Origin: Rikenellaceae bacterium
Lineage (GTDB): Bacteria; Bacteroidota; Bacteroidia; Bacteroidales; Rikenellaceae
Length of the DNA stretch: 64,000 bases
NCBI GenBank assembly: GCA_015059945.1
Contig: SUZJ01000006.1
Span: 1-64,000, forward strand
Direction of reading: 5' to 3'
The notes under the pieces were generated by a model. That model was given only the letters and a program-made list of their open reading frames with translations. It made no database searches and was not told the origin of the DNA. This document shows positions 46,666-64,000 of this stretch, in pieces. The position numbers and the translations under genes are program-made. Each line of letters begins with the position of its first letter. The stretch's first letter is position 1.

Positions 46666-48153
46666 CTACTCGTAGTTGCCCGATTTGAGAAGGCTAACCT
46701 CTTTGTCGGTAAGGAAACGCCACTCGCCACGTTTGAGCTTCTGCTTCGTTAGACCTGCGAAGTAAACCCTGTCGAGCTTGCCCACGCGGTAGCCAACGTG
46801 CTCAAACATACGCCTAACGATACGGTTGCGGCCCGAGTGAATTTCAATACCCACAGCATTTTTCATCTTGGGATCCTCTACATAGCAGATGTCGTCGGCT
46901 GCAATCTCGCCATCTTCGAGCGTGATGCCCATAATCAGACGCTCCATATCGCTGCGCTCCAGACGTTTGTCGAGGCTCACCTGATAGATTTTCTTCTTCT
47001 CGTAGGTGGGGTGGGTGAGCTTTTTGGCCAAGTCGCCATCGTTGGTGAGCAGCAGTACGCCCACACTATTCTTGTCCAGACGGCCTACGGGATATATGCG
47101 CTCGTTGCAGGCGTTCTTCACCAAGTCCATTACGCTCTTGTCGGCGTGGGGGTCGTCGAGAGTGGTAACAAACCCTTTGGGCTTGTTCATAACGATATAT
47201 ACTTTCTTCTCGTTCTGGATTTGCTGACCATTGTAGCATACCACATCACCAGGCATAACTTTGCTGCCCAACTCGGTCACCGTAACGCCATTGACGGTGA
47301 TGGCTCCCGAAGTGATGTACTCGTCGGCCTCCCTGCGCGAGCAGATGCCCGACATAGAGATGTAGCGGTTCAGGCGGATAGCCTCGCTCTGCTTGGGTGC
47401 ATCGTAGCTGGGATAGTTGTCGAGAGTGTAGTGGTTGGCGGTATTGACCATAGCCTTGGGCTCTCGCTTCTCAAAACGGGGCTTGCGGTCGCCGTAGGGC
47501 TTGCGGTCGCCAAATTGTTTGCGCTCACCGAAGGGTTTACGCTCGCCAAACTGCTTGCGCTCTCCACCGAAGGCTCGGCGGTCGCTGTTGAAGCTACGCT
47601 CCTCGCGGTTGAAACTGCGTTCCTCACGATTATTGTAGTTGCCACCCTCGCGATTGTAGTTGCGCTCGCGGTTGTAACCACCCTCGGTGCGGTTGTAGTT
47701 GCGCTCTTTGTTATAGCCGCCCTCGCGGTTGAAATTCCTCTCTTCGCGGTTGTATCCACCCTCGCGATTGTAACCACTCTCGGTGCGATTGTAGTTGCGC
47801 TCGCGGTTGTAGCCACCTCGCTCCTCGCGGTTATTAAAGCTGCGCTCGCCATAATTGCTGCGGCCATAGCTCCTTTCGCCACGAGTCGAGTCGTTTTGGT
47901 GTCGGTTGAAGTCTGTCAGTCGATTGTCCCTCGTAAAATTGGGATTGTAGGAGTGGCGACGCTCGCCTTGTGGCTCTCTGCTGCTCTCGCCATTGTGCGA
48001 GTTGGTCGAGTAGAGGGCCTGATTGTGGCCGCCGGTACGGGCACGTCGGTCTTTGATGAACGACTTGTAAGCCTCATTAGAACTCTTTGAATCTTCACGA
48101 TTGAAATCGTTGTTGTCAGAATGTGCCCTCACGGGGAAGTCTGTTGTTCTCAT
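46666..48153 (-). CDS. RluB-type rRNA pseudouridine synthase with long RGN-rich leader
   Basis: A 495-residue enzyme of the RsuA/RluB family. The C-terminal 240 residues hold an S4 RNA-binding domain (IRLNRYISMSGICSRREADEY) and the catalytic domain with the active-site block YPVGRLDKNSVGVLLLTNDG (catalytic Asp in GRLD), plus RNRIVRRMFEHVGYRV. The N-terminal 240 residues are low in complexity, made of YNREGG/NYNRE/REERSFN repeats rich in Arg, Asn, Gly and Glu, followed by GERKPFGDRKP repeats. Such leaders occur in Bacteroidota members; they probably bind RNA non-specifically. A promoter box lies at 48230-48223. Confidence 0.92.
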   Translation of the reverse strand: MRTTDFPVRAHSDNNDFNREDSKSSNEAYKSFIKDRRARTGGHNQALYSTNSHNGESSREPQGERRHSYNPNFTRDNRLTDFNRHQNDSTRGERSYGRSNYGERSFNNREERGGYNRERNYNRTESGYNREGGYNREERNFNREGGYNKERNYNRTEGGYNRERNYNREGGNYNNREERSFNREERSFNSDRRAFGGERKQFGERKPFGERKQFGDRKPYGDRKPRFEKREPKAMVNTANHYTLDNYPSYDAPKQSEAIRLNRYISMSGICSRREADEYITSGAITVNGVTVTELGSKVMPGDVVCYNGQQIQNEKKVYIVMNKPKGFVTTLDDPHADKSVMDLVKNACNERIYPVGRLDKNSVGVLLLTNDGDLAKKLTHPTYEKKKIYQVSLDKRLERSDMERLIMGITLEDGEIAADDICYVEDPKMKNAVGIEIHSGRNRIVRRMFEHVGYRVGKLDRVYFAGLTKQKLKRGEWRFLTDKEVSLLKSGNYE

Positions 48154-51158: not shown

Positions 51159-52658
51159 TTATTTGTACTCAAACTCGATAGTTGCGTTCAGGGCCGAGGT
51201 CTCAACGGCGTTGGCAACATATACGCCAGCATCCTCTTGGGCAGTAACGAAGAATACCAGGCGGCAGTTGTCGGCATTCCACTTATCGTCGAGCTCCATA
51301 GTAAAGACGTGGTCGGCAACCTGACCTGCCTCCAAGTTACCCACCGAGTGGCCACGATAGCGCAGCTGACCACCGCTGTCGTGGCGGCTGTCGGCAATGC
51401 GGATAACGGCCTCGTGAATGTCGAAGTCGTAGTCATATATCTGTGCACTGTTGGCCTGAGTTGCCTTGATGCCATCCTCTACCAACCAAGCACCCACATA
51501 GTATTCGCCAGTCTGGTGAGCCTTTACGGTCAGGCGGGCAACAACGGTGCTACCCTCAATCGACGAACGGGCCGACAAACCGGCTTTGGCTGCTTCGAGC
51601 TGTGCGGCATCGATATATTTCATAATGTTCTGTTTGTTGCCACTGCGACCATTGTTGCCGTAGCTATAATGCATATCGAGCAGAATGGTGGGGTAAGAAT
51701 TTACACCCATCACATTTGCCAGAGTGGTGTAGGGTGGTTGGAGATACAGTGCGTATTCGGCATCTTCGGGGTCGCCGTTGTAGGTGTGGGCTGCGGCCAA
51801 CACAAATTTGTCGTTGTAGTTGGCATCCTGCATCAGGTCTTTGATAGCCGACGACATATAGGGGCAGTTGGGACAACCTGTACCGGTAAACTGGTTCAGC
51901 AGCGAGCGACGTTTGAACGAGGTGTTCTCGGGGTCGGTGTCGATTGCTCGGCTGGGGATTGCAAAGTCTACTGCGGTGATGCGGATGGGTTTGTCAATGG
52001 TGTTGGCGCTACCATAGCTAACCCAAATATCCCTCACACCCACCTCGGCAGGGGTGTACTGGGGCAGGGTGTAGAGGTCGTCGTTGGCATCAACGTAGTC
52101 TACCATCTCGAAGTCGGTATCGGTAATCTCTACATTGTCGCTACCGCTCAGGTAGAACTTAATCTTGTTGGCATCGTTAACCACCTTGCCATCCTTGCGC
52201 ACGATGATAAATACGGCATCCTCGCCACGCTGGAATACGGTCGAAGTAGCCACTACCGACAGTCCCTCCTGGCCCTCTACGTCGCTCAGGTCGAGTTTGC
52301 TCAGCTTGGCATCTACGGCAGTGATTTTTACGATGTTCGACTTGTTTTCGCCATACATAAAGTAGAACTCATACTCGCCAGGGGTGGTGGTCTTGAATAC
52401 CAGGTTGGTCAAATCCACAACCACAAGGTTGTTGGTTTTGGCATCGTAGGCCTCTACCTCGGCAGCCTCAACGGGCACGCCATCGAGGGTTGCGGTAAAC
52501 GTAACGGTATCGTTGCCGTCGGCATAGATAGTGGTAGCCGAGGCAGTTACTTTGAAGGTGCCCTCGGTTACATCGGTGCCGCCATTGTTGGGGCCCTCGC
52601 AACTTACCAGGGTGGCCACTGCGGCTACCATCAGTGCAAAATACTTAACGATTTTCAT
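51159..52658 (-). CDS. Omp28-type lipoprotein with thioredoxin-like CPNC domain
   Basis: A 499-residue lipoprotein (lipobox LVSC, lipid at C20). Two Ig-like domains come first (about 35-115 and 130-235, e.g. IYADGNDTVTFTATLDGVPV), then an Omp28/thioredoxin-like domain that starts at about 245 with the redox-like motif FTGTGCPNCPYM (C262, C265) and contains NSYPTILLDMHYSYG (the cis-Pro-like loop). A final beta domain ends the protein. The family was first described as Porphyromonas gingivalis Omp28, a putative adhesin. It lies 84 bp downstream of a DUF6029 gene on the same strand and has three paralogs at 60-63.6 kb. Confidence 0.85.
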   Translation of the reverse strand: MKIVKYFALMVAAVATLVSCEGPNNGGTDVTEGTFKVTASATTIYADGNDTVTFTATLDGVPVEAAEVEAYDAKTNNLVVVDLTNLVFKTTTPGEYEFYFMYGENKSNIVKITAVDAKLSKLDLSDVEGQEGLSVVATSTVFQRGEDAVFIIVRKDGKVVNDANKIKFYLSGSDNVEITDTDFEMVDYVDANDDLYTLPQYTPAEVGVRDIWVSYGSANTIDKPIRITAVDFAIPSRAIDTDPENTSFKRRSLLNQFTGTGCPNCPYMSSAIKDLMQDANYNDKFVLAAAHTYNGDPEDAEYALYLQPPYTTLANVMGVNSYPTILLDMHYSYGNNGRSGNKQNIMKYIDAAQLEAAKAGLSARSSIEGSTVVARLTVKAHQTGEYYVGAWLVEDGIKATQANSAQIYDYDFDIHEAVIRIADSRHDSGGQLRYRGHSVGNLEAGQVADHVFTMELDDKWNADNCRLVFFVTAQEDAGVYVANAVETSALNATIEFEYK

Positions 52659-52742
52659 CTCTTTAATACTCTCTCTATTCGGTTGGTTATTGTGTTTTTT
52701 GTTGTTTCTACGTTGTTGGTGTACTACCACACGCTTGGCCTT

Positions 52743-54368
52743 TTAGAACGAGGTGCTGAGCATCAGGTTCAGACCTGTGTAGGCGGGCGAGTAGCGACAC
52801 ACACCGCCCGAGCAGACCATACCTGCCCTGTTGCGGCCATAGCTCAGCTGTGCTCGGGTGCGCCCCTGAGTGTAACTTGCGCCCACGCTGTAATAGTTAA
52901 TCTTCTCTACGCCATTGTGGTAGTTCTGGCGCCTTTCGAGCCTCTGGTGGTTGTACATATCGCTCACAAAGATACTCCACCTTGGGGCCATATTGAACTC
53001 GACCAGAGCAGCAACCCAGTCGCCCTCGTAGTCGTTCGAGAGCAGGTACTGGGCCTCTACGCGCACCGAGTTCTTCTTGTTAATTTTGTAGCTCACGTCG
53101 CCCACGAAGATGTTTGACGTGCAAACCTCGGGGTGAGCCATATCGTTGTGGGGAATAAACTGCTGCAACGAGTAGAAGAACGTAGCCTTCCACTCCCTGC
53201 TCCACTGACGCTCCACATCGAAGTTGAAGTCCCTCCAAAACATCAGCCTCTCCCTGGTGATTGCTTGGTCGCTGCGCAGGGTGTAGGCGGTCGAGAAGTT
53301 GGCGTGCAGTGTCCAACTATCGTACCTCACCTTGCGGTTGCGAATCTTGTAGAACAGATCCACCTGTGCGCCAATCTCGCCATCGGGAATCACTTGCAAG
53401 GGGTTCAAGTTGGCCAACATATAGGTGTGCTGGCGGGTTAGTGCAGGCAGATAGTTGAGCATATTGCCCGTGCCGCTGCCATAGAGCGAGAGCATAGTGC
53501 TCATACGGCTCAGAATCCTGGTTTGGGCCATCACACTGAATGTACCTTTGGTATAGCCTGCCTCGGCCAACAGTGCGGTACCGGGTTTGGCTTGGTCGGC
53601 AACTACCGAGCCCAAGTCGGCACTCTTGCCTGCATACTCGGCTTTGAGCGTCATACCCTTCCAGTCAAACGAGGTGCGGGCCGACCAGAGGTTGAGCAGA
53701 GGCGTTTCGAGGCCCCTCCAACCGAAGCCCATATCCTGCTTGTCGAGCGACTCGTAGCGCATCAGATAGCTGGCCTCCACGGCCATCATAGCCTCGTTCC
53801 AACCGAGCACGTCCGAGAGCCACATACTTGCATCCACACCTGCCAACAGCGACTCGGCATACTCCAAGTAGAGCCTCGGGCGGCCCACAATGGCTTTGAG
53901 CGACAGGTAGTCGGTGGGCTTGAATGTGGCCCTCAATCCCTCGGTCGAGTTGTTAAGGCCCAACTGGCGGTCCTCAAAGCTGCGGTACACAAGGCCGTTG
54001 CCAAACTGGTCGTAGAAGTCGCCCAGCGTGAGGCCAAAGTTGTCGCCCCTGTAACTGATAAACTTGGTCGCCAGGGCAAATGCGGGGTCGGCTGCGCCAT
54101 AGTTGCGCAACTCGTAGCCCTGCAAGGCGGGCAGATAGATGTCGCCCTGCAAACCTGCCGACAGTCGGCCGCGGTTGTAGTCGATTTTGATGTGGTTGTT
54201 CGAGCCGAAGGTGGCATCGAGCTCTTCGCCCACCACCGGGTCGTTGAAGTAGTAGATGCTGTTCGACTCGACGCTACCGGTCAGTGCTCCTCCGCCCACC
54301 AAAATCTGTGCCTTGGCAAGGCCGAGGCCACACATTACGGCCAGCAGAGTGATAAAAAGTCGCTTCAT
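52743..54368 (-). CDS. DUF6029 family outer membrane protein, copy 1
   Basis: A 541-residue protein with a Sec signal peptide (MKRLFITLLAVMCGLGLAKA) and a predicted large beta-barrel of the Bacteroidales family DUF6029. It shares with the copy at 58463 the N-terminal block LTGSVESNSIYYFND, GDFYDQFGNGLVYRSFEDR, the segment VEFNMAPRWSIFVSDMYNH and the C-terminal YGRNRAGMVCSGGVCR (C519, C524) before a final barrel-type STSF. It lies upstream of an Omp28-type lipoprotein and downstream of a 1030-residue lipoprotein. Function is unknown; the paired cysteines and Omp28 neighbours suggest a thiol-related partnership. Confidence 0.85.
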   Translation of the reverse strand: MKRLFITLLAVMCGLGLAKAQILVGGGALTGSVESNSIYYFNDPVVGEELDATFGSNNHIKIDYNRGRLSAGLQGDIYLPALQGYELRNYGAADPAFALATKFISYRGDNFGLTLGDFYDQFGNGLVYRSFEDRQLGLNNSTEGLRATFKPTDYLSLKAIVGRPRLYLEYAESLLAGVDASMWLSDVLGWNEAMMAVEASYLMRYESLDKQDMGFGWRGLETPLLNLWSARTSFDWKGMTLKAEYAGKSADLGSVVADQAKPGTALLAEAGYTKGTFSVMAQTRILSRMSTMLSLYGSGTGNMLNYLPALTRQHTYMLANLNPLQVIPDGEIGAQVDLFYKIRNRKVRYDSWTLHANFSTAYTLRSDQAITRERLMFWRDFNFDVERQWSREWKATFFYSLQQFIPHNDMAHPEVCTSNIFVGDVSYKINKKNSVRVEAQYLLSNDYEGDWVAALVEFNMAPRWSIFVSDMYNHQRLERRQNYHNGVEKINYYSVGASYTQGRTRAQLSYGRNRAGMVCSGGVCRYSPAYTGLNLMLSTSF

Positions 54369-54398
54369 TTTGGTCTTGTCTGTGGTGCTTCTTTTTTA

Positions 54399-54448
54399 TA
54401 AAAAGCCGAACAGAAACCCTCCGCCTTTTGTGGGGCGGAAGATTTCTG
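54399..54448 (-). terminator. Terminator after 1030-residue lipoprotein gene
   Basis: Stem CAGAAACCCTCCGCC/GGCGGAAGATTTCTG (three central mismatches), followed on the minus strand by TTCGGCTTTTTATAAAAAA. It may be partly read through into the DUF6029 gene 30 bp further on. Confidence 0.7.
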
Positions 54449-54484
54449 AAAGGCGTTGATGTTTAGTCTTTTACGCTCGTTGTA

Positions 54485-57400
54485 CTAACGGTTGTAGAAA
54501 CCGCTCTGAACGCGCTCGCGTGCGGTGGCCTCCCACTCCTCTACGCTGCGAATCTTGTAGGGCTCTACCAACTCGTGCATAGTTACGGGGGTGGTGAAGT
54601 TGGTGGGCGAGTAGGTGCGGCTTACAGGAGTTACCTTGTAGGGGTTCTCCACTATTTGTTTCTTGCCTGCAACCTTCTGCTGCTGTGCCTCGGCGGTGTA
54701 GCCACGAGTCAGCACGATATCCGAGATGATGCTCGAAGCGACTGCAAACGAAGAATAGTACTCATCCTGTACCGAACCCATATTGGGATAGTAGCTCTTC
54801 TCGCCAATAACTACGGGCTTGATGGTGATGGTGTTGCCATCGGCCGAAATCTCTACGGGGAACTTGCCATCAAAAATGTTGCCCTCCTCATCCCACAAGT
54901 AGGGGTACATCTCGCTGGTGGTAGTCTCGTAAGCAACCATGTGGTACTCGTTAACGTACTCGCCCCAACCGGTGTTGGTGGTAGTCCACGACGACATGGG
55001 GATATACCTATTCACGTTGAAGGGTACCCAAGCGTTGCCCTCGGCGTCGAACTCGATGTACCATTTGGGACCGAAGTCGTATACGGGAGCATTGCTACTC
55101 CAACCATTGTATGTATCCGAACAGAACAGGTCGAATGGCGACTTATAGCTGTCTTTTGCCTCGCCAGTAAGGTCGAAACTCCAACCTACACAAGTTACTT
55201 GGTTGCGGTTGCGAACATCCTCGTTGTGGCGGTCAACAGCATCGGTAAACTCGGCGTAGTAGTTGTCGGTAGCCTCCTTCGAGATGCCAAACTGTGCGTA
55301 GGTGTCGTAAACCGACTGGGGCAGAGTCTCGGGATAGGTCTGAGCACCGATAGTAACCTTGCTGGTTTTCTCCGAAGTCAGGGCCTGAATCTCGCCGGTA
55401 TCCTCATCTACGACTGCTTTGTAGAGAATGGTTGCTTTGGCAGTCCAGTCGCCATCGAGCGAGGTGAAGTAGTTCGACTCGATTTTGTTTGCGGGGTCGG
55501 TAACTGCCGAAACGGCCTTAACAGTCTCGGTATAATAGTGGTTGCTCTCACCATTGTAGACTTTCATCGCAAAGTAGTTTACGGCATTGGGACGGCTGGG
55601 AATCTCTACGATAAGACCGTCAGCCGAGTTAATCATAGCCACGTCGGCCGCGCTGAGGGGGTTACCATAGTAGTCGAGCAACATCTCGGGGGGGTAAGCT
55701 GCGCCGAGCCACTCGCGCTCGTAGTTGGCGATGTAGTATGCCTGCTTAATCTGCGACGAAGCAGCAGTCTTCTTAACGAGGTAACGCACCTTGTCGGGTG
55801 TAGAATCCAATACGGTTACGGTTACCTCTGGTGCGGGCAACTTAAACTCGCCAAGTTTGAACTCTTTGTGGTAGAAGCTCTGCTTGGTAGCATCGCAAAT
55901 GCCGTCGCCATCTTTGTCGCCACCAGCCATTGCTACGATATATGCGTGGAATACACTATTTCTGTCGGTAAGTACACCATTCACAAAGCTGAAACTACCC
56001 TCCTCAGAGCCATAGTAGTCCTCGCCCAAGTACATCTCTTTGGGGCCGGTCAGGCTGATTGCGCCCTCGTTGAAACCACTGTTAGAGGTTACAAACCACT
56101 GCATATACTTCTCGTCGTTGTCGAGCAAAGGCAGCAGTTGCTGACGCATACCCTCGGTAATTACGAATACACAATACTGCTCAACATCTTCGGTGGGGGT
56201 AAAGCGCAGTTTTGCTTTGGTGTTGTTGTTGTCCGACGACAAAAGCACCTCACAATTGACTGTGCCATCGAAAGGCTCGGGCTGGGTATTGGTTACCAAC
56301 TCCTGTACAGCAAAGCCATACCACCAAGGTACTTGGTTAGATGATACATTGTAGTCCTTCTCCCATGCGGCGTTGTACTCCTCTTCGAGGAACAAGGGTT
56401 GATAGTAACCATCGGTAAAGTTGGCATACCAGTAGTGGTCGCCATAGCGATACTCACCCATCATAAGCATATTGGGCTGACCGGGTACCAAAATCGAGTG
56501 TACTTGCAAGTAGGTGCCATACTCCTCGTCGTAGGCGGGTTTGCCATCAGGACCGAGTACCCAAGCGGAGTTGTTGTCGAAGGTCATCGAGCAACTCTCC
56601 TTAATTTGGTTGTTGTAGTAGTCCTCGTGAAGGTTGATAGAATTAGCAAAGCTCTCGGCACGTCCGTTCTTACCAAACTTGTGGTTGAGGTTGAAGGCGT
56701 ACAAATCCCACAAACCCCACTTCACAATGTGGTTCAGCTCGGCCAACGAGTCGGGCAGCTTGATGTCCACCTTGAAGCTTGCGTAGTCTATGCTGTGAAT
56801 CTTGAACGACTCCGAGAAGTCCTGAGTCTTGATGCCATCCAGAATGAGCACCTCTTCGTAGTACTCCTCCAACTCGGCCACCTCACCGGCGATGTAGATG
56901 GCGTAGTCGTTGTTGGGCATCAGGGCGTTAATCGTAACTTCCTGTTTAGCCTCGTTGATATCGCCCGACTTACCTGTTGCAAAGATAATGTCGGCAGTGG
57001 GAGTCACTTCGGGCAGACCATCTTTTACGCGGTAAACCAGATAGGCGTAGCGCGAAATGCGGGCCGAAGTGATTGCAAACTTGGCAGCAGTGGTACCAAC
57101 CGACACAACCTCAGCACTCATAGTGGGCTGGGCGTAGGTCATAAGGGTAGCCTTTGCAACCTCGGGGAATACATAGGTCTTGTCCTCTACTACCAGACGG
57201 CCTGCAACAAACACGATGTAGCCACTGTCGGGCTCGAGGTCTGTTACGTTGAGCCTTACAACCGACTGACCCTCGGTCAGTTCGATGGGGGTGCCGTTGG
57301 CAAAGATATCCTCGGCAGTGGGAACATCTTTGTACTCGGCGGTGAGGTCGGCCTGTACAACCTGATAGGCCAACTCGTTTACTACGTTGAAGTTGATTTG

Positions 57401-57577
57401 CACCGTTGCATCTTCGATGTTGGTGGCGGTAACTTTCAGACGCAGGCTCGCATCTTTGAGCAGCTCCTCGGCGGTGGGCTCAATGGGCTCATCGGGGGTG
57501 TTTGGTTCGTCACAACCCACCATTGCCACTGCGGCAGCGCAGAGGGCCAAAAGGGCGTAAAATTTAATTTTCTTCAT
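54485..57577 (-). CDS. Large lipoprotein with FN3-like domains
   Basis: A 1030-residue lipoprotein (lipobox MVGC, lipid at C22, followed by DEPNTPDEPIEP, an acidic stretch that fits surface export). The N-terminal 240 residues contain two or three fibronectin-III-like units, e.g. LRLKVTATNIEDATVQINFN..LEPDSGYIVFVAGRLV and AEVVSVGTTAAKFAITSARI..LMPNNDYAIYIAGEVA. The remaining 780 residues hold further FN3-like parts (TVTVLDSTPDKVRYLVKKTA) and a C-terminal region with many W, Y and N that I cannot assign. It is the first gene of the minus-strand group in front of DUF6029 and Omp28. Function unknown. Confidence 0.78.
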   Translation of the reverse strand: MKKIKFYALLALCAAAVAMVGCDEPNTPDEPIEPTAEELLKDASLRLKVTATNIEDATVQINFNVVNELAYQVVQADLTAEYKDVPTAEDIFANGTPIELTEGQSVVRLNVTDLEPDSGYIVFVAGRLVVEDKTYVFPEVAKATLMTYAQPTMSAEVVSVGTTAAKFAITSARISRYAYLVYRVKDGLPEVTPTADIIFATGKSGDINEAKQEVTINALMPNNDYAIYIAGEVAELEEYYEEVLILDGIKTQDFSESFKIHSIDYASFKVDIKLPDSLAELNHIVKWGLWDLYAFNLNHKFGKNGRAESFANSINLHEDYYNNQIKESCSMTFDNNSAWVLGPDGKPAYDEEYGTYLQVHSILVPGQPNMLMMGEYRYGDHYWYANFTDGYYQPLFLEEEYNAAWEKDYNVSSNQVPWWYGFAVQELVTNTQPEPFDGTVNCEVLLSSDNNNTKAKLRFTPTEDVEQYCVFVITEGMRQQLLPLLDNDEKYMQWFVTSNSGFNEGAISLTGPKEMYLGEDYYGSEEGSFSFVNGVLTDRNSVFHAYIVAMAGGDKDGDGICDATKQSFYHKEFKLGEFKLPAPEVTVTVLDSTPDKVRYLVKKTAASSQIKQAYYIANYEREWLGAAYPPEMLLDYYGNPLSAADVAMINSADGLIVEIPSRPNAVNYFAMKVYNGESNHYYTETVKAVSAVTDPANKIESNYFTSLDGDWTAKATILYKAVVDEDTGEIQALTSEKTSKVTIGAQTYPETLPQSVYDTYAQFGISKEATDNYYAEFTDAVDRHNEDVRNRNQVTCVGWSFDLTGEAKDSYKSPFDLFCSDTYNGWSSNAPVYDFGPKWYIEFDAEGNAWVPFNVNRYIPMSSWTTTNTGWGEYVNEYHMVAYETTTSEMYPYLWDEEGNIFDGKFPVEISADGNTITIKPVVIGEKSYYPNMGSVQDEYYSSFAVASSIISDIVLTRGYTAEAQQQKVAGKKQIVENPYKVTPVSRTYSPTNFTTPVTMHELVEPYKIRSVEEWEATARERVQSGFYNR

Positions 57578-57921
57578 TGTTGTTAATGTGTTGTTAGTTA
57601 ATTATTTTTTCTTTTTTGCGGTTATTCTGCGTTTGTCTATTTGTCGAAGCGACTTCCCAATTTTTCGAATGAAGTTAGGTTCGTGCACATTACGTCAAAA
57701 TATCGGGTGCAATATAGGTATTTTTTTTGAAACAGCAACACCAACCCTCCCAAATGGCAACTTTTTTCGATAATATATAAAAATGGGAGCGAAATGTTTG
57801 GAGGACTTGAAAAAATAAGTATATTTGCCGAGATTATTGTAGTTTTTCTCTTTTCGCAAAATTGGTGCAAATAAGTGAAAATTAGTAACTAACGAACATA
57901 AATAAACAATCAAAGAAGATT
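57578..57921. other. Divergent intergenic region between the two envelope gene groups
   Basis: 344 bp that are AT-rich and hold no gene. The plus strand has a good promoter (57820-57827). I see no clear -7 box for the minus-strand lipoprotein gene. The stretch from 57700 to 57800 has homopolymeric T and A tracts. Confidence 0.5.
57820..57827 (+). promoter_or_regulatory. -7 promoter box of TlpA/DUF6029/Omp28 operon
   Basis: TATATTTG with TTTG at 57796-57799 at the expected -33 spacing (20 bp); the leader to the ATG at 57922 is about 88 nt. Confidence 0.75.
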
Positions 57922-58404
57922 ATGAAAAAGTTTATTCTTGCAGCAGTAGTGCTTCTGGCTTGCTCGGTGGCACAGGCACAGATTCCTTCGGTTAAGGTCG
58001 AGAACGGCAAAGGTGAGGTGGTAAACACCAGCTCGCTCGTCGATGGCAAAACCCCTATGATTATCTCGTTCTGGGCAGTTACCTGCAAGCCCTGTATCCG
58101 CGAGCTCGATGCCATCAACGATGTACTGCCCGATTGGCTCGACGAGGCCGATTTCAGGGTGGTGGCAGTGTCGACCGACGATGCTCGTTTCAACGCTCAG
58201 GCTCGCGCATTGGCCGAGGGCCACGGTTGGAGCGACTACACTCTGCTCTACGACAAGAACCAGGAGTTTATGCGTGCTATGAACGTGTCGTTTACTCCCC
58301 AGGTCTATGTTGTCGATAAGGATGGCAAGATTGTCTACTCGCACACCGGCTACACCCCCGGAAGTGAGCAGGAGCTCATCGACGTAATCAAGAAATTGCA
58401 GTAG
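57922..58404 (+). CDS. TlpA-like periplasmic thioredoxin
   Basis: A 160-residue exported thioredoxin-fold protein. The signal peptide (KKFILAAVVLLACSVAQAQ) ends at about residue 20. The active site SFWAVTCKPCIREL has C55 and C58; the cis-Pro loop is SFTPQVYVVDKDGKIVYSH (Pro at about 126). This layout fits TlpA/ResA-type thiol oxidoreductases that reduce disulfides in the periplasm. It is the first gene of an operon with a DUF6029 barrel protein and three Omp28-type CxxC lipoproteins, which suggests that it hands electrons to them; that is inference. Confidence 0.9.
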   Translation: MKKFILAAVVLLACSVAQAQIPSVKVENGKGEVVNTSSLVDGKTPMIISFWAVTCKPCIRELDAINDVLPDWLDEADFRVVAVSTDDARFNAQARALAEGHGWSDYTLLYDKNQEFMRAMNVSFTPQVYVVDKDGKIVYSHTGYTPGSEQELIDVIKKLQ

Positions 58405-58462
58405 TGAGCCAAAAACAACCCAAACAAGAATAACAGAGAACACGAACCTTAAAACTTCACAG

Positions 58463-60109
58463 ATGACACGCAAAAACATACTGATTGCCGCACTCGCACT
58501 GATAATCCCAATTGCTGCAAGTGCGCAACAGTTTGGTGGGACTGCCGACCAGGGTGGCTATCTGACGGGTAGCTTTGAGAATAACTCGATTTACTACCTC
58601 GAAGATGCCCAAAACCCCGGCTGCTACGTTCCCGATGGCAGCTTTGGCTCTAACAGCTATCTGAAGGCCGACTACTATAAGGGCAACTTGGTGGCAGGCT
58701 TGCAGGTCGAGTCTTATCAACCCGCTCTGGTGGGCTATCCGCTCAACCTCGAAGGCAATAAGCTGTCGAACTTCTATATGTCGTGGACCGACGACGACTT
58801 CTCGCTCACAGCAGGCACTTTCTACGATCAGTTTGGTAGTGGCCTGCTGTTCCGCACCTATGCCGACCGCACTCTGGGTATCAACAATGCCCTGCTGGGT
58901 GCCCGCTTGGCCTATAACTACAAAGACATTCTTGCAGCCCGCATCTTGTGGGGTATGCCTCGCTTGGGCTCCGATTGGAAGAGTGTCAGCGATAGGGGCG
59001 TGGTAGAGTGGGCAGGTACTCAGGTTAGGGGTGTCGATGTGTCGCTCTCGCTCTCGTCGCTGCTCGGATGGCAGGGCACAATGCTGGCCGTTGAGGGGTC
59101 GCTGCTGAGCCGCTACGAGCAGATTAAGTACGATATGGAAGAGGAGGGCATCTCGCCAACCACTACGGGCTGGTCGGGCCGCCTGAATTTCGAGAAGAGT
59201 GGCTTTGTGGCCAAGGCCGAGTGGGTAAATGGTGGCCAGTGGTTTGGCTATTACCCAACCGACGAGGCCGACTATCTGAAACGCAACGGCAATGCACAAC
59301 TGCTCGAACTGGGCTATAGCGGTGGTGGCTTGGGCGCCAATCTAACTCTGCGCAGGATGGAGTGGATGGGCTCGAAGATTAACTACGCGTCGGTTGAGTC
59401 GAACAATACGCTCAACTACACCCCTGCACTCTGCGCCCAGTACTCGTATATGCTCACCAACCTCAATCCCTACATCCCCGAGGTGGGTAGCACCGATGGC
59501 CACCTGACAAGTGGCGAGATTGGCGGCCAGCTGGACGTCTACTACAACTTCCGTCGCGGCAGCGCCATTGGTGGCAAGAGGGGTATGAAGGTCAATCTGA
59601 ACGTATCGACCTACTACGCCATTGGCGAGGAGGGTACGGCTCAGATGGGCGAACTGCTCTGGCGCAACGTGAATGTGGGCGTAGAGAAACAGGTGAGCCG
59701 TAAGCTGAAGATGCAGCTGCTGTGGGCTCTGCAACAGGGTGAGGATATGTATCACAACTGGTGCCTGTCCAACATTGTGGTGGCCGACCTGCTCTATAAG
59801 TTCACACCCAAGTTCTCTACCCGTGCCGAGTTGCAATACCTGTCGAGTGCCGACGGTATGAAGGACTGGATGGCGGGCTTGGTCGAGGTCAATATGGCCC
59901 CCAAGTGGAGCGTCTTTGTGAGCGATATGTACAACCACGGCACCTCAAAGGTGCACTATTATAGTGTGGGCGCAAGCTATACCGCTTCGCGCACACGCAT
60001 TGCTTTTAGCTATGGCCGCAACCGCTCGGGTATGGTTTGCTCGGGTGGCGTGTGCCGTACTGTGAAGGCGTTTACGGGTGGCAACCTTACGATTTCTACC
60101 TCGTTTTAA
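58463..60109 (+). CDS. DUF6029 family outer membrane protein, copy 2
   Basis: A 548-residue paralog of the 52743-54368 protein, with signal peptide (RKNILIAALALIIPIAASAQ). Shared parts are LTGSFENNSIYYLED, FYDQFGSGLLFRTYADRTLGINN, GLVEVNMAPKWSVFVSDMYNH and the C-terminal YGRNRSGMVCSGGVCR (C526, C531). A third conserved cysteine lies in WCLSNIVVAD (copy 1: VCTSNIFVGD). It is encoded 58 bp after the TlpA-like gene and 39 bp before an Omp28-type gene, so it belongs to this operon. A barrel fold is inferred from signal, strand pattern and terminal TISTSF. Confidence 0.87.
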   Translation: MTRKNILIAALALIIPIAASAQQFGGTADQGGYLTGSFENNSIYYLEDAQNPGCYVPDGSFGSNSYLKADYYKGNLVAGLQVESYQPALVGYPLNLEGNKLSNFYMSWTDDDFSLTAGTFYDQFGSGLLFRTYADRTLGINNALLGARLAYNYKDILAARILWGMPRLGSDWKSVSDRGVVEWAGTQVRGVDVSLSLSSLLGWQGTMLAVEGSLLSRYEQIKYDMEEEGISPTTTGWSGRLNFEKSGFVAKAEWVNGGQWFGYYPTDEADYLKRNGNAQLLELGYSGGGLGANLTLRRMEWMGSKINYASVESNNTLNYTPALCAQYSYMLTNLNPYIPEVGSTDGHLTSGEIGGQLDVYYNFRRGSAIGGKRGMKVNLNVSTYYAIGEEGTAQMGELLWRNVNVGVEKQVSRKLKMQLLWALQQGEDMYHNWCLSNIVVADLLYKFTPKFSTRAELQYLSSADGMKDWMAGLVEVNMAPKWSVFVSDMYNHGTSKVHYYSVGASYTASRTRIAFSYGRNRSGMVCSGGVCRTVKAFTGGNLTISTSF

Positions 60110-60148
60110 CAGTTAAGATTACACCTTAATATATATTATATACAGCAA

Positions 60149-61291
60149 ATGAAGCGTTTTGTTACTATACTGATGGGTTGTGCGGCTGCGCTGACTATGG
60201 CAGCTTGCGGCACCCCCGAGGGCCCCACTCCCGACGGGCCAAACCCCAATGACCCCGAGAATCCCACTACGGGCGAGGCTGGTGCAGCACCCTATACTAT
60301 CGAGGTAGATAAGACCACTATCGAGGCTAATGGCCTGGATGTGGCAACTTTCCGTGTGCTCGATGCTGCTGGCAACGACCTCTGCGTGGGCGATGATGCC
60401 AAGAAGGTATATATCCAGAACGTAACCGAGAATGTGAGCCTGGGCCGTAAGGTTACCACCTTCAACTCGATTATCAATGGTACCTTCGAGTTTACTGCAA
60501 CTTTCAAGGGCATTGCTACCCAAAACTCGGTGACTGTAACTGCCCAGAACAGAGTGCAGTACGAGAAATACAAACAGATGATTTGCGTCTACGACCTGAC
60601 CGGTACTTGGTGTACTGCCTGCCCCTATATGACCACCACCTTTGAGAAGGTATACGATGGCCCCTGGGGCGACCAGATGATTGTGATGGCCGTACACGCT
60701 GCGGCTACTGCTACCGACCCATTTGCAATCCCTGTGGGTACAAGCGACCTGGGTGGCGTTATGCTTGGTAGGTTTGGCGGTAGTGGCTATCCCACTGTTA
60801 TCTATGACTTTAACGATATGGTTGAGGGTACTCACAGCGAGAGTGAGGTGGTTGAGTTGCTGCGCAAACAGATTATCGACTACCCCTCGACTTGTGGTGT
60901 TAAGATTTCGAAGGCTACGCTCTCGGGTGGCTCTATCTCGATTGAGGCTTCGATGACCTCGACTGCCGATGGCGACTACGATATGGGCTATGCTCTGCTG
61001 GGCAATGGCCTCAAGTACGATGGCGGTACCGAGGAGGACGGCATCTATGACGATGTTGTGGTGGCTGTGTCGCCCAACTTTATAACTATGCAGAAGGATA
61101 GCAAGTTCAGCGCCAAAGAGGGTGTCGAGCAGACCAAGAGCTGGACTATCGAGGGTGTGGGCAATGCCGACCCAAGCAAACTGAGGGTAGTGGTATTTGT
61201 ACTGCGCGAGGTCGAGGGCGGCAGAGTGATTGTCGATAACGCCAATGTGTGCGCTGTGGGTAGCACCGCCGACTACTTGCTCAATGAGTAA
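60149..61291 (+). CDS. Omp28-type lipoprotein with CTAC motif
   Basis: A 380-residue lipoprotein (lipobox MAAC, lipid at C20). After a Pro/Gly/Asp-rich linker (residues 22-45) comes one Ig-like domain (about 48-133) and a thioredoxin-like Omp28 domain with YDLTGTWCTACPYM (C155, C158) and GSGYPTVIYDF. The C-terminus NVCAVGSTADYLLNE is shared in kind with the next two proteins. Compared with the 499-residue member at 51159 it lacks one Ig-like domain. It is the third gene of the operon, 39 bp after the DUF6029 gene. Confidence 0.85.
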   Translation: MKRFVTILMGCAAALTMAACGTPEGPTPDGPNPNDPENPTTGEAGAAPYTIEVDKTTIEANGLDVATFRVLDAAGNDLCVGDDAKKVYIQNVTENVSLGRKVTTFNSIINGTFEFTATFKGIATQNSVTVTAQNRVQYEKYKQMICVYDLTGTWCTACPYMTTTFEKVYDGPWGDQMIVMAVHAAATATDPFAIPVGTSDLGGVMLGRFGGSGYPTVIYDFNDMVEGTHSESEVVELLRKQIIDYPSTCGVKISKATLSGGSISIEASMTSTADGDYDMGYALLGNGLKYDGGTEEDGIYDDVVVAVSPNFITMQKDSKFSAKEGVEQTKSWTIEGVGNADPSKLRVVVFVLREVEGGRVIVDNANVCAVGSTADYLLNE

Positions 61292-61305
61292 TAAATAATA
61301 GACTG

Positions 61306-62427
61306 ATGATGAAGAATTTGGCTAAATATGGCTGGCTGGTAGCTGTGGCTCTGGTTGCAATGGTGGGGTGTGGCCCCGTGGAGCAGCCCGAAGATGGGCC
61401 CGAGCCCTGGGAGAGCGTTCCCGAGGGTGTGTTGCGCCTGTTTGCCGACAAAACCCAGATTGCTGCCGATGGCGAGGATGCGGTGCAGTTCAGGCTGATG
61501 TATGGCTCGGAGGATGTAAGCGAGGCCAAGAACCTGCAACTCATCCGCACCTACGATGGCGAAGAGGTCTATATGCCCTATAGGACTACGACCTTTACTT
61601 CGACCGCCCCGGGTGAGTATACCTTCAAGGCAAAGATTTTCCGCAGTGGCGATATTGTTACCGACAATGAGGTGAAGATTACCGTAGTGCCAGCAGTGGC
61701 CGATGGCGAGCAGAAGGATTACTACCAGAGGCTTGTGGGCTTGCAGTTTACCTCGGTGGGGTGCCAGAATTGCCCCACACTGAGCTACGACCTCAAGGCT
61801 ATTCAGGAGGAGGTGCCTGGGCGTATGAGTGTGCTCTCGTTCCACCAGTACTTCAAGATGGACGACCCAATGGAGCACCCCCTGGCTACGGCCTACCACA
61901 CCTATTTTGGTATGAGCGGCCTGCCCAACTTCAACTTCAACATCATTCCCGACTATGAGGTTAATCACACCAAGAGCGCTATTCTCAGCGGCATAGACTA
62001 TGTGCTGACCAACTATCCCGCAACTTGTGGTGTGGCTATCGAGAGTAGTGTAGAGGGGGGTAAGGCTGTGGTTACGGCCAAGATTACCTCGAACACCAAC
62101 ACCAAGTACCGCTATATGATATTCTTGCTCGAAGACGGAATTGAGTATACACAGTTGGGCGTGTCGGGCACATACGTTCACAACAACGTGGTGGTTGAGG
62201 CCTCGTCGGGCGAGATGTTTGGCGACAAGGTGGCCTCGGGTGCCAAGTTGCAGGTGGGTGTTGAGTATACCGAGACTCGTATGTTTGAACGGCTCGGTGG
62301 CGAGTGGCCTGCCGAGAATATGAGGGTAGTGGTGGCTGCCCTGAGCGCCTATGGCGATGCCTATATTGTCAATAACGCTGCCGAGTGCAAGCTGGGCGAG
62401 AGCGTAGACTATGTGATTGAGAATTGA
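61306..62427 (+). CDS. Omp28-type lipoprotein with CQNC motif
   Basis: A 373-residue lipoprotein (lipobox MVGC, lipid at C22, then GPVEQPEDGPEP, acidic). One Ig-like domain (about 43-130) precedes the thioredoxin-like domain with LQFTSVGCQNCPTL (C153, C156) and GMSGLPNFNFNI in place of the usual cis-Pro loop. The C-terminus NAAECKLGESVDYVIEN matches the family pattern. Its stop codon lies inside the six-copy GAGAATT array, so the last three codons are made of repeat sequence. The gene begins ATGATG, 14 bp after the previous stop. Confidence 0.85.
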   Translation: MMKNLAKYGWLVAVALVAMVGCGPVEQPEDGPEPWESVPEGVLRLFADKTQIAADGEDAVQFRLMYGSEDVSEAKNLQLIRTYDGEEVYMPYRTTTFTSTAPGEYTFKAKIFRSGDIVTDNEVKITVVPAVADGEQKDYYQRLVGLQFTSVGCQNCPTLSYDLKAIQEEVPGRMSVLSFHQYFKMDDPMEHPLATAYHTYFGMSGLPNFNFNIIPDYEVNHTKSAILSGIDYVLTNYPATCGVAIESSVEGGKAVVTAKITSNTNTKYRYMIFLLEDGIEYTQLGVSGTYVHNNVVVEASSGEMFGDKVASGAKLQVGVEYTETRMFERLGGEWPAENMRVVVAALSAYGDAYIVNNAAECKLGESVDYVIEN

Positions 62428-62460
62428 GAATTGAGAATTGAGAATTGAGAATTGAGAATT
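62419..62460. repeat. Perfect 6-copy heptamer repeat GAGAATT over a stop codon
   Basis: Six exact GAGAATT units. The TGA stop of the preceding gene spans units 1 and 2. Another GAGAA follows before the sequence diverges. The same unit is repeated 11 times at 35766-35842. Confidence 0.95.
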
Positions 62461-62513
62461 GAGAAACGGCTCATAACTCCTTTCTGTTAGAGAGGAAAAG
62501 TATTGCAAGAGAG

Positions 62514-63596
62514 ATGATTAAGAACTGTTTGAGATATATCGCTATGCTGGTGGCAGTGATGCTGGTGGCAGTGGGTTGCGGCCCCAAAGAGGAGGTCGAG
62601 CGCCCAGTGTTGAGCGCCAGTGCCGAGAGCGTAGTGGCCGATGGTGTAGAGAGCGTAATCTTTACGGTGAGCTATGGCGGCGAGGATGTTAGTGCCAAAG
62701 CACAGGTGTGGTGCAAGACCAGTGGCGAGCAGCTTGCTGCGCCCGAGTTTAAGACCACTGCCGAGGGCGACTATGAGTTCTATGCTGTTTACAATGGCGT
62801 GCAGTCCAATAGTGTGGCAGTTAGCGCCACCGAGTATGTTGCCCCAGGGCCCCACGTTTCGCGTTTCGAGCGCCACGTCTGCCTGATGGACCTGACGGGT
62901 ACGGGTTGCTCGTTCTGCCCCAAGGGCTACCGCAATATTGTGCTGAACGTGACCAACAACTTCATCTACTCGGGCTTTGTGCACGTTTTGGGCTTCCACG
63001 ATGCCAACTCGAAGCTCAATGACGTGACCGACCCAATGGCTATCGGCGTTACCACCCAGTTGCTCGACGACTTTAAGGTTACGGGTACCCCCTGGTTTAT
63101 TGTAGACCTGCGCGATGGTGGCAGCCTGACCGACAATGTTGGCGAAATGAGCGAGGCCATAGACCGCTCGACCGAGGAGTATGGCGCCCACTCTGACGTG
63201 GCTATCAAGACCACCTTCAATAAGGATGCACAGAGCTGTAAGGTAGATGTGAAGGTCTTTGCCGAGACCACCGACGACTACCGAGTGGCTGTATATGTGG
63301 TCGAGGACAACATCAAGTCGCCCCAGTTGGACGGCTCGGTGGTGATTGAGGACTACAACCATCGCCACGTTGTGCGCCAGATGCTCAGTGGCTCGTACAA
63401 GGGCGACAGCCTGGGCCGATTGAAGGCCGAGAGCGAGGCTCAGAAGAGCTACGAGTTTGCTATTGGCGATGGTGGCTGGAAGGTAGAGAACTTGCAGATT
63501 TATGCAATGGTAATCGACAGCACAGGTACGGTCAATAACGTGGCTGTATGTGATGTCAATAATGGCGAGGTGGACTATAAGTACCTGGCTAATTAG
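62514..63596 (+). CDS. Omp28-type lipoprotein with CSFC motif
   Basis: A 360-residue lipoprotein (lipobox VAVGC, lipid at C22, then GPKEEVE). One Ig-like domain (about 32-106) precedes a thioredoxin-like domain with MDLTGTGCSFCPKG (C132, C135) and KVTGTPWFIVDLRDGG (cis-Pro-type loop). The C-terminus is NVAVCDVNNGEVDYKYLAN. It is the third CxxC Omp28-type protein in a row. The four motifs in this window (CPNC, CTAC, CQNC, CSFC) differ, which may tune redox potential or partner choice. Confidence 0.85.
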   Translation: MIKNCLRYIAMLVAVMLVAVGCGPKEEVERPVLSASAESVVADGVESVIFTVSYGGEDVSAKAQVWCKTSGEQLAAPEFKTTAEGDYEFYAVYNGVQSNSVAVSATEYVAPGPHVSRFERHVCLMDLTGTGCSFCPKGYRNIVLNVTNNFIYSGFVHVLGFHDANSKLNDVTDPMAIGVTTQLLDDFKVTGTPWFIVDLRDGGSLTDNVGEMSEAIDRSTEEYGAHSDVAIKTTFNKDAQSCKVDVKVFAETTDDYRVAVYVVEDNIKSPQLDGSVVIEDYNHRHVVRQMLSGSYKGDSLGRLKAESEAQKSYEFAIGDGGWKVENLQIYAMVIDSTGTVNNVAVCDVNNGEVDYKYLAN

Positions 63597-63633: not shown

Positions 63634-64000
63634 ATGACTATGAAAAGAAAACTTTTTGCACTGATGGCTATTGCGCTGATGGCAATGTTTGCTGTGTCGC
63701 TGACCGCTTGCGACAAGCAGAAACCCGACGAACCCAATACAGAGGAGCCTGGTGAGAACCCTGGCGACGAGCCTGGTGATGAGCCTGGTGACCAACCCGG
63801 TGATGAACCCGGGGATGAGCCCGGTGACGAGCCCGGAGATGACCCCAACCACGGTGTGCAGGTGCCCGACAAGATTCCTACCCCCATCAAGTGGGAGGTT
63901 GAGAAGGTTGAGGCTACCGACGATGGTGTGAGCTTGGAGGTTACACGAGTTGAGAACAAGAACTTTGTGTTTGTGGCTCGCCCAGGTGCAAATGTAGCTT
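63634..64000 (+). CDS. Lipoprotein with PGDE repeats, truncated by window end
   Basis: Start of a further lipoprotein gene, open to the window edge (122 codons visible). The start is ATG at 63634 or 63640 (MKRKLFALMAIALMAMFAVS), the lipobox is SLTAC with lipid at C26. Directly after come eight or so tandem units of the PGDE/PGDQ kind (about residues 38-66), a negatively charged spacer that would hold the domain away from the membrane, then NHGVQVPDKIPTPIKWEVEK. No domain can be named from this part. It is 37 bp after the third Omp28-type gene and likely the same operon. Confidence 0.8.
   Translation, partial: MTMKRKLFALMAIALMAMFAVSLTACDKQKPDEPNTEEPGENPGDEPGDEPGDQPGDEPGDEPGDEPGDDPNHGVQVPDKIPTPIKWEVEKVEATDDGVSLEVTRVENKNFVFVARPGANVA

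Follow-up and report, generated by a model that had tools for sequence, protein, structure and literature searches.

A gene cluster at positions 51,159 to 63,596 of contig SUZJ01000006.1 from a Rikenellaceae bacterium (assembly GCA_015059945.1) was found to contain a conserved unit. Its parts are a TlpA-like thioredoxin that carries a Sec signal, a DUF6029 barrel that has 24 strands and an invariant pair of cysteines, and thioredoxin-fold partners that are either lipoproteins or proteins with the sorting tail of the type IX secretion system (T9SS). The window, i.e., the whole stretch of DNA analysed, comprises the first 64,000 nucleotides of this contig. We give about even chances to the reading that the cluster encodes a thiol relay across the outer membrane, which would keep surface thioredoxins reduced along an electron path that we infer. 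DUF6029 would then be the first known outer-membrane thiol conduit, leading from periplasmic TlpA through the barrel to surface thioredoxins, and many Bacteroidota would hold their surface chemistry in a reduced state, a proposal that in our estimate could fall either way. To our knowledge no thiol relay across the outer membrane is known, those across the inner membrane being well known, and neither such a relay nor this cluster as a relay was found described in the open-licence literature searched.

The initial annotation of the window, made from the sequence alone, had proposed that DUF6029 is an outer-membrane protein whose cysteines are the partner or substrate of lipid-anchored Omp28 proteins, giving a thiol relay across the envelope. 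This interpretation was upheld in part. The thioredoxin fold of the Omp28-type protein with a CSFC motif, the invariance of the cysteine pair, the co-occurrence of the two families and the link with TlpA stood, and a third conserved cysteine and the novelty of a redox role for Omp28 did not.

Co-occurrence of DUF6029 and Omp28

DUF6029 was matched in 80 of the 296 genomes of a phylum sample, 59 of the matches having E ≤ 1.2e-18 (strong) and 21 having E ≥ 5.3e-13 (weak), a division that was drawn after the table had been seen. The Omp28 family PF11551 was present in 58 of the 59 strong genomes, and 58 of the 62 genomes with PF11551 fell among those 59 (Fisher P 1.4e-55, a value that does not take phylogeny into account). 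In the sole strong genome lacking a PF11551 match (G123), our own profile recognised an Omp28-type frame that follows the barrel (L087). A class sample of 396 genomes gave DUF6029 in 280, Omp28 in 288 and both in 277, DUF6029 standing alone in 3 of its 280 genomes. The co-occurrence is nearly one to one. Profile search matched neither family in 14 control genomes, which included Bacteroides ihuae.

Five families (f2, f4, f5, f6 and f86) contain some members with both genes and others with neither; within f2, the two genes are present in G230, G461 and G623 and absent from G238, G413, G438 and G594. Shared ancestry thus does not readily account for the co-occurrence.

Linkage with TlpA and replacement of Omp28

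Surroundings of at most 20 kb around the 80 hits were screened for TlpA, Omp28 and DUF6029, the Omp28 and TlpA profiles being grown from the window proteins and the Omp28 seed taking in the CxxC region. The association of TlpA with these genes, which had been read from the window alone, was borne out: at 48 of the 59 strong loci DUF6029 has a TlpA-like gene no more than 300 bp away, 0.23 near hits being expected from the density elsewhere in the loci. Omp28 lies within 800 bp at 47 of the 59 (1.82 expected on the same basis), and at 38 loci both genes are near. The order tlpA, duf6029, omp28 is frequent, often with the genes touching, and in many named Flavobacteriaceae records Omp28 is divergent and stands directly upstream of tlpA-duf6029.

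Some variants of this arrangement were seen. Four loci (L119, L129, L130 and L131) contain two DUF6029 genes on the same strand, about 7.5 kb apart from start to start, a TlpA-like frame preceding the first and Omp28 following the second. At L113 and L134 the TlpA adjoining DUF6029 carries CSNC in place of CKPC.

Genomes without Omp28 contribute 20 DUF6029 loci, 18 of them from family f24; a twenty-first, with a weak hit (G227, L111), was dropped because no DUF6029 frame was seen there. TlpA is adjacent to DUF6029 at all 20, and a second TlpA-like thioredoxin is found within 300 bp at 19, the exception (L092) having a CPSC thioredoxin lipoprotein directly upstream of tlpA. These replacement thioredoxins, mostly with a CPHC motif, are either a lipoprotein of about 178 residues or a protein of about 270 residues that ends in a T9SS sorting tail, and some loci have the two together. 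Twenty-nine of the downstream ones were aligned (A5, which leaves out the upstream thioredoxin of L092 and the frames of L094, L095 and L110 that overlap the barrel by more than 60 bases); the T9SS sorting domain TIGR04183 was matched in 16, and a simple script assigned a lipobox to 12. Since the loci lacking Omp28 keep TlpA together with another thioredoxin, the barrel appears to retain both TlpA and a surface-type thioredoxin despite a change in the kind of the latter.

One locus (L039) displays a natural fusion, in which a single frame encodes a signal peptide, TlpA (residues 24-160) and the barrel (172-671), with no second signal peptide visible by eye. Together with the replacement of Omp28, this fusion carries the most weight in our reading. 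It is the only fusion among 81 frames of the phylum sample; none occurred among 86 frames of the named loci, and no further one among the matches listed from the class sample. Six longer open frames of the latter (L192-L197) were rejected as fusions, as they extend upstream past the start and TlpA lies in a separate frame.

The DUF6029 barrel and its cysteine pair

Both DUF6029 proteins of the window belong to PF19494, scoring 527.7 and 528.8 bits where 27 would suffice, and covering positions 1-538 and 3-538 of the 538-position profile. An AlphaFold model of copy 2 (predicted local distance difference test, pLDDT, 92.7) is all beta except for the signal peptide and short helices, and forms a barrel of 24 strands, as counted from the DSSP string. 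The outer loops have a mean length of 14.9 residues (median 13) and the inner turns one of 3.9 (median 3), and the C-terminal residue is the aromatic Phe548. An even number of strands, the alternation of long loops with short turns and a C-terminal aromatic residue are the marks of an outer-membrane beta-barrel. The structures nearest to the model are the FimD and PapC ushers, the match of the barrel spanning residues 32-548 of 548; LptD and chain 6r2q_B of the Mtr complex were also among the Foldseek matches. Among the best 80 matches listed, the closest named relatives of copy 2 include metagenome-assembled genomes labelled Tidjanibacter, at no more than 64% identity, and the named records span gut and marine Bacteroidota.

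The motif VCSGGVCR, which had been noted close to the C-terminus, is present in both copies, and its cysteine pair is conserved far beyond them. The Cys count, the alignment A1 and the linkage counts above all refer to the family-profile phylum sample. The pattern C..G[VI]C was found near the C-terminus of all 79 full-length DUF6029 frames, namely the two of the window and 77 out of 77 from other genomes, the second cysteine always being 17 or 18 residues before the C-terminus. Two truncated frames (G023, L057; G226, L058), in which the C-terminal motif is not visible, were left out of this number. An alignment of 18 divergent barrels (A1), sharing 15-45% identity with the window protein, has eight invariant columns, both cysteines included. 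In 63 of the 79 proteins the barrel domain contains no further cysteine; the window copies, which belong to the remaining 16, are richer in cysteine than most relatives, and copy 2 additionally has Cys54 and Cys324. A third cysteine common to the two copies (Cys416 / Cys434), which had been counted as conserved, is not maintained across the family and was rejected as part of the mechanism. The named loci (L112-L191) are the best 80 found through two patterns, the FYEQFGSG loop and the Cys motif, so the loop conservation of 0.81 and 0.74 in their alignment A3 is biased, as is the Cys conservation there.

According to the model, the pair lies cross-strand in a short hairpin preceding the last strand, and strand order and loop lengths would assign it to the last loop on the extracellular side. 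The hairpin might hold a structural disulfide, with DUF6029 acting as a passive receptor for surface thioredoxins and TlpA doing no more than reducing or isomerising the barrel and Omp28 during periplasmic assembly. A staple is plausible for a cross-strand pair this close to the C-terminus, and cysteine pairs of outer-membrane proteins can be structural, as in LptD, itself among the Foldseek matches. We nevertheless regard this explanation as unlikely, for it does not alone account for the near one-to-one co-occurrence with Omp28 or for the exchange of Omp28 for another type of thioredoxin, and in our judgement a pair invariant at 15-20% identity suggests chemistry rather than a staple.

The Omp28-type proteins and HBP35

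All four Omp28-type proteins of the window belong to PF11551 (44.1 to 110.1 bits against a gathering score of 34.9). They are relatives, and not members, of the Omp28 lipoprotein subfamily NF033782, with 27.0 to 77.5 bits against a cut-off of 150. The expectation that their CxxC lies within a thioredoxin fold was confirmed on the CSFC protein, the one of the four that was modelled (pLDDT 93.0). The model shows a strand at 122-128, Cys132 and Cys135, a helix at 135-147, Pro193 and a strand at 194-197, the CxxC thus beginning the first helix of the fold. When these four were aligned with 64 proteins from DUF6029 loci, the only invariant columns were the two cysteines of CxxC, and the presumed cis-proline was kept in at least 90% of the 68 sequences. 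TIGR04183 was matched in 25 of the 68, and the simple script assigned a lipobox to 32; it misses the CPNC protein of the window, for which the reference lacks the start codon, and its tail pattern flags that protein wrongly. Three Omp28-type frames (L116:4991-7990, L119:9633-12197 and L131:9604-11958), lying immediately after DUF6029, contain three CxxC motifs each (e.g., CGYC/CPNC/CSFC).

The solved structure closest to the CSFC model is the thioredoxin HBP35 of Porphyromonas gingivalis (PDB 5y1a; E 9.9e-13, TM 0.54/0.61), which also gave a weak sequence match, CxxC included (E 0.0032). HBP35 is cargo of the T9SS with its C-terminal domain, whereas the window proteins are predicted lipoproteins. 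Its thioredoxin domain, located at the cell surface, can reduce insulin, for which it uses Cys48 and Cys51; the authors propose that HBP35 has a part in the redox state of the surface (PMC2907840, consulted as an extract). As the nearest solved fold has published thioredoxin activity, a redox role for proteins of this sort, which the initial annotation had held to be new, is not new. NCBIfam moreover already has an "Omp28-related selenoprotein" (NF045500), a name that suggests a redox site. It is matched by 57 of the 68 Omp28-type proteins at E ≤ 0.001, the window proteins scoring 12.9-31.1 bits or nothing, where the cut-off is 200. The extract of PMC2907840 names neither a barrel nor an electron source for HBP35, and the available part of a 2026 preprint (PMC13404670), which proposes that surface proteins may be protected by a surface thioredoxin of the HBP35 kind, mentions neither DUF6029 nor an electron source. 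The best sequence match in the PDB is Omp28 of P. gingivalis (2r2c; E 6.4e-7), over the C-terminal domain, the matched part of the chain lying outside the thioredoxin domain.

A second explanation, which we consider quite unlikely, holds that DUF6029 is the transporter of some small substrate (for example cystine or a different thiol, heme, or a polymer of sugars), which the surface thioredoxins prepare outside the cell and TlpA handles in the periplasm, the cysteine pair being a gate or binding site. The binding of hemin by HBP35 does not depend on its two cysteines (PMC2907840, same extract), which speaks against it. The neighbour screen covered TlpA, Omp28 and DUF6029 only, so that a missing transporter partner is no evidence on transport. 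A resemblance to DUF6029 in HHpred is reported for some barrel hits of Wzi in the accessible portion of the only open-licence paper found to deal with DUF6029 (2022, PMC9603273); there the barrel of the Wzi-type, OPX-linked polysaccharide porins is called 18-stranded, whereas the DUF6029 model has 24 strands. No polysaccharide family was matched by Pfam in the nine proteins scanned.

Comparison with ushers and electron-transfer systems

The chaperone-usher proteins FimD and PapC consist of a 24-strand pore together with N- and C-terminal domains that bind chaperones. Their pore resembles DUF6029, but the barrel match covers the protein from residue 32 to its end, which leaves no space for the terminal domains, and DUF6029 is not a chaperone-usher protein. 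A usher- or Slam-like secretion channel exporting Omp28 to the surface, with TlpA keeping CxxC reduced in passage, is very improbable, given that these domains are absent, that the T9SS sorting domain of 25 of the 68 Omp28-type and 16 of the 29 replacement proteins gives those proteins an export route of their own, and that export alone leaves the invariant cysteine pair without a reason.

The proposed relay resembles DsbD, CcdA and ScsB in having a thioredoxin-type donor, a membrane protein with a cysteine pair and a thioredoxin-type acceptor on the opposite side. Those are helical proteins of the inner membrane, whereas for DUF6029 an all-beta barrel in the outer membrane is predicted; no DsbD family was among its Pfam matches, and it does not belong to DsbD/CcdA with their helical DsbD_TM domain. 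MtrCAB likewise uses a large barrel for electrons crossing the outer membrane. The Mtr conduit works with multihaem cytochromes, and no CxxCH haem site was found in any of the eight window proteins checked, so the cluster is not of the Mtr type.

The proposed relay

In the thiol relay, TlpA would receive its electrons from a DsbD-type protein of the inner membrane and would pass thiols to the Cys-x4-Cys hairpin of DUF6029 from the periplasmic side of the wide lumen. The hairpin would in turn reduce thioredoxins of the Omp28 or CPHC type at their CxxC; these would be docked at the cell surface and may then reduce disulfides outside the cell. Proteins of the TlpA/ResA type are usually reductants, and a DsbD-type protein was found in 295 of the 296 phylum genomes, that of the window included; for these reasons an outward flow of electrons is assumed, and an electron source at the inner membrane exists. 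The contact of TlpA with the hairpin, the direction of flow, the surface location of the lipoprotein-type partners and the substrates outside the cell are putative.

Several points weigh against the relay. Each transfer of electrons, from TlpA to DUF6029 and on to Omp28, is one that we infer, and so is the placement of the lipoprotein-type partners, the four window Omp28 among them, at the cell surface. The geometry is a weak point: with the hairpin on the extracellular side, as the model has it, a periplasmic TlpA could reach it only by entering the lumen, unless the hairpin itself moves. Counted over all 80 phylum genomes with DUF6029, Omp28 is present in 58 only, and in none of the 21 weak ones; conversely, among the genomes with Omp28, 4 of 62 in the phylum sample and 11 of 288 in the class sample lack a DUF6029 match. 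TlpA lies beyond 300 bp at 11 of the 59 strong loci, one of them the fusion L039, and Omp28 beyond 800 bp at 12. Co-occurrence with DsbD, being near universal, was rejected as uninformative. Finally, the work on HBP35 has so far given its authors no positive finding with respect to oxidative stress (PMC2907840, extract consulted).

Genes of the window

The window contains a duplicated unit, in which two barrels and four Omp28 proteins have one adjacent TlpA in common. The genes form two divergent groups, one on the reverse strand (the CPNC Omp28, DUF6029 and a lipoprotein of 1030 residues) and one on the forward strand (TlpA, DUF6029 and three Omp28). The inventory of one periplasmic TlpA with CKPC, two DUF6029 proteins and four Omp28 lipoproteins with CxxC, given earlier from the sequence, was confirmed by the open frames and Pfam (Table 1). 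The thioredoxin is TlpA/ResA-like by PF08534 (72.0 bits against 26.6) and its CKPC, and falls below the NCBIfam cut-offs. No other copies of DUF6029 or Omp28 were found in the genome (G000; 13 contigs, 92.7% complete).

Table 1. Features of the cluster, with positions in the window
Feature	Position	Strand	Basis
Omp28-type lipoprotein, CPNC (Cys262, Cys265), lipobox LVSC	51159..52658	-	open frame; PF11551, 1.3e-31
DUF6029 protein copy 1, predicted outer-membrane barrel	52743..54368	-	open frame; PF19494, 4.3e-158
CSGGVC codons (Cys519, Cys524) of DUF6029 copy 1	52797..52814	-	invariant motif
Predicted lipoprotein, 1030 aa	54485..57577	-	open frame; no Pfam or NCBIfam match
TlpA/ResA-like thioredoxin, Sec signal peptide (by eye), CKPC codons 58084-58095	57922..58404	+	Redoxin, 5.9e-20
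DUF6029 protein copy 2, outer-membrane barrel, 24 predicted strands	58463..60109	+	PF19494, 2e-158
Hairpin codons Cys526-Ser-Gly-Gly-Val-Cys531 of DUF6029 copy 2	60038..60055	+	invariant motif
Omp28-type lipoprotein, CTAC	60149..61291	+	PF11551, 2.5e-11
Omp28-type lipoprotein, CQNC	61306..62427	+	PF11551, 1.1e-24
Omp28-type lipoprotein, CSFC (Cys132, Cys135, codons 62907-62918), modelled thioredoxin fold	62514..63596	+	PF11551, 8e-30

The predicted lipoprotein of 1030 residues lies upstream of DUF6029 copy 1 in the same strand group. Beyond the cluster, the start of a further lipoprotein (63634-64000, forward strand) has a repeat of the PGDEPGDEPGD type shortly past the lipobox and extends beyond the end of the window. 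At 46666-48153 (reverse strand) a protein that by eye is pseudouridine synthase-like has a long N-terminal region of GGYNRE/NYNR repeats.

Significance

Surface thioredoxins such as HBP35 lack a named electron source, as far as the extracts consulted go, and such a source could be the conserved DUF6029 barrel, with its invariant cysteine pair and its links to a periplasmic thioredoxin on the one hand and a surface-type thioredoxin on the other. If the relay is real, it would give a function to DUF6029, a domain of unknown function present in 280 of the 396 class genomes sampled, and gut and marine Bacteroidota would regulate the redox state of extracellular proteins.

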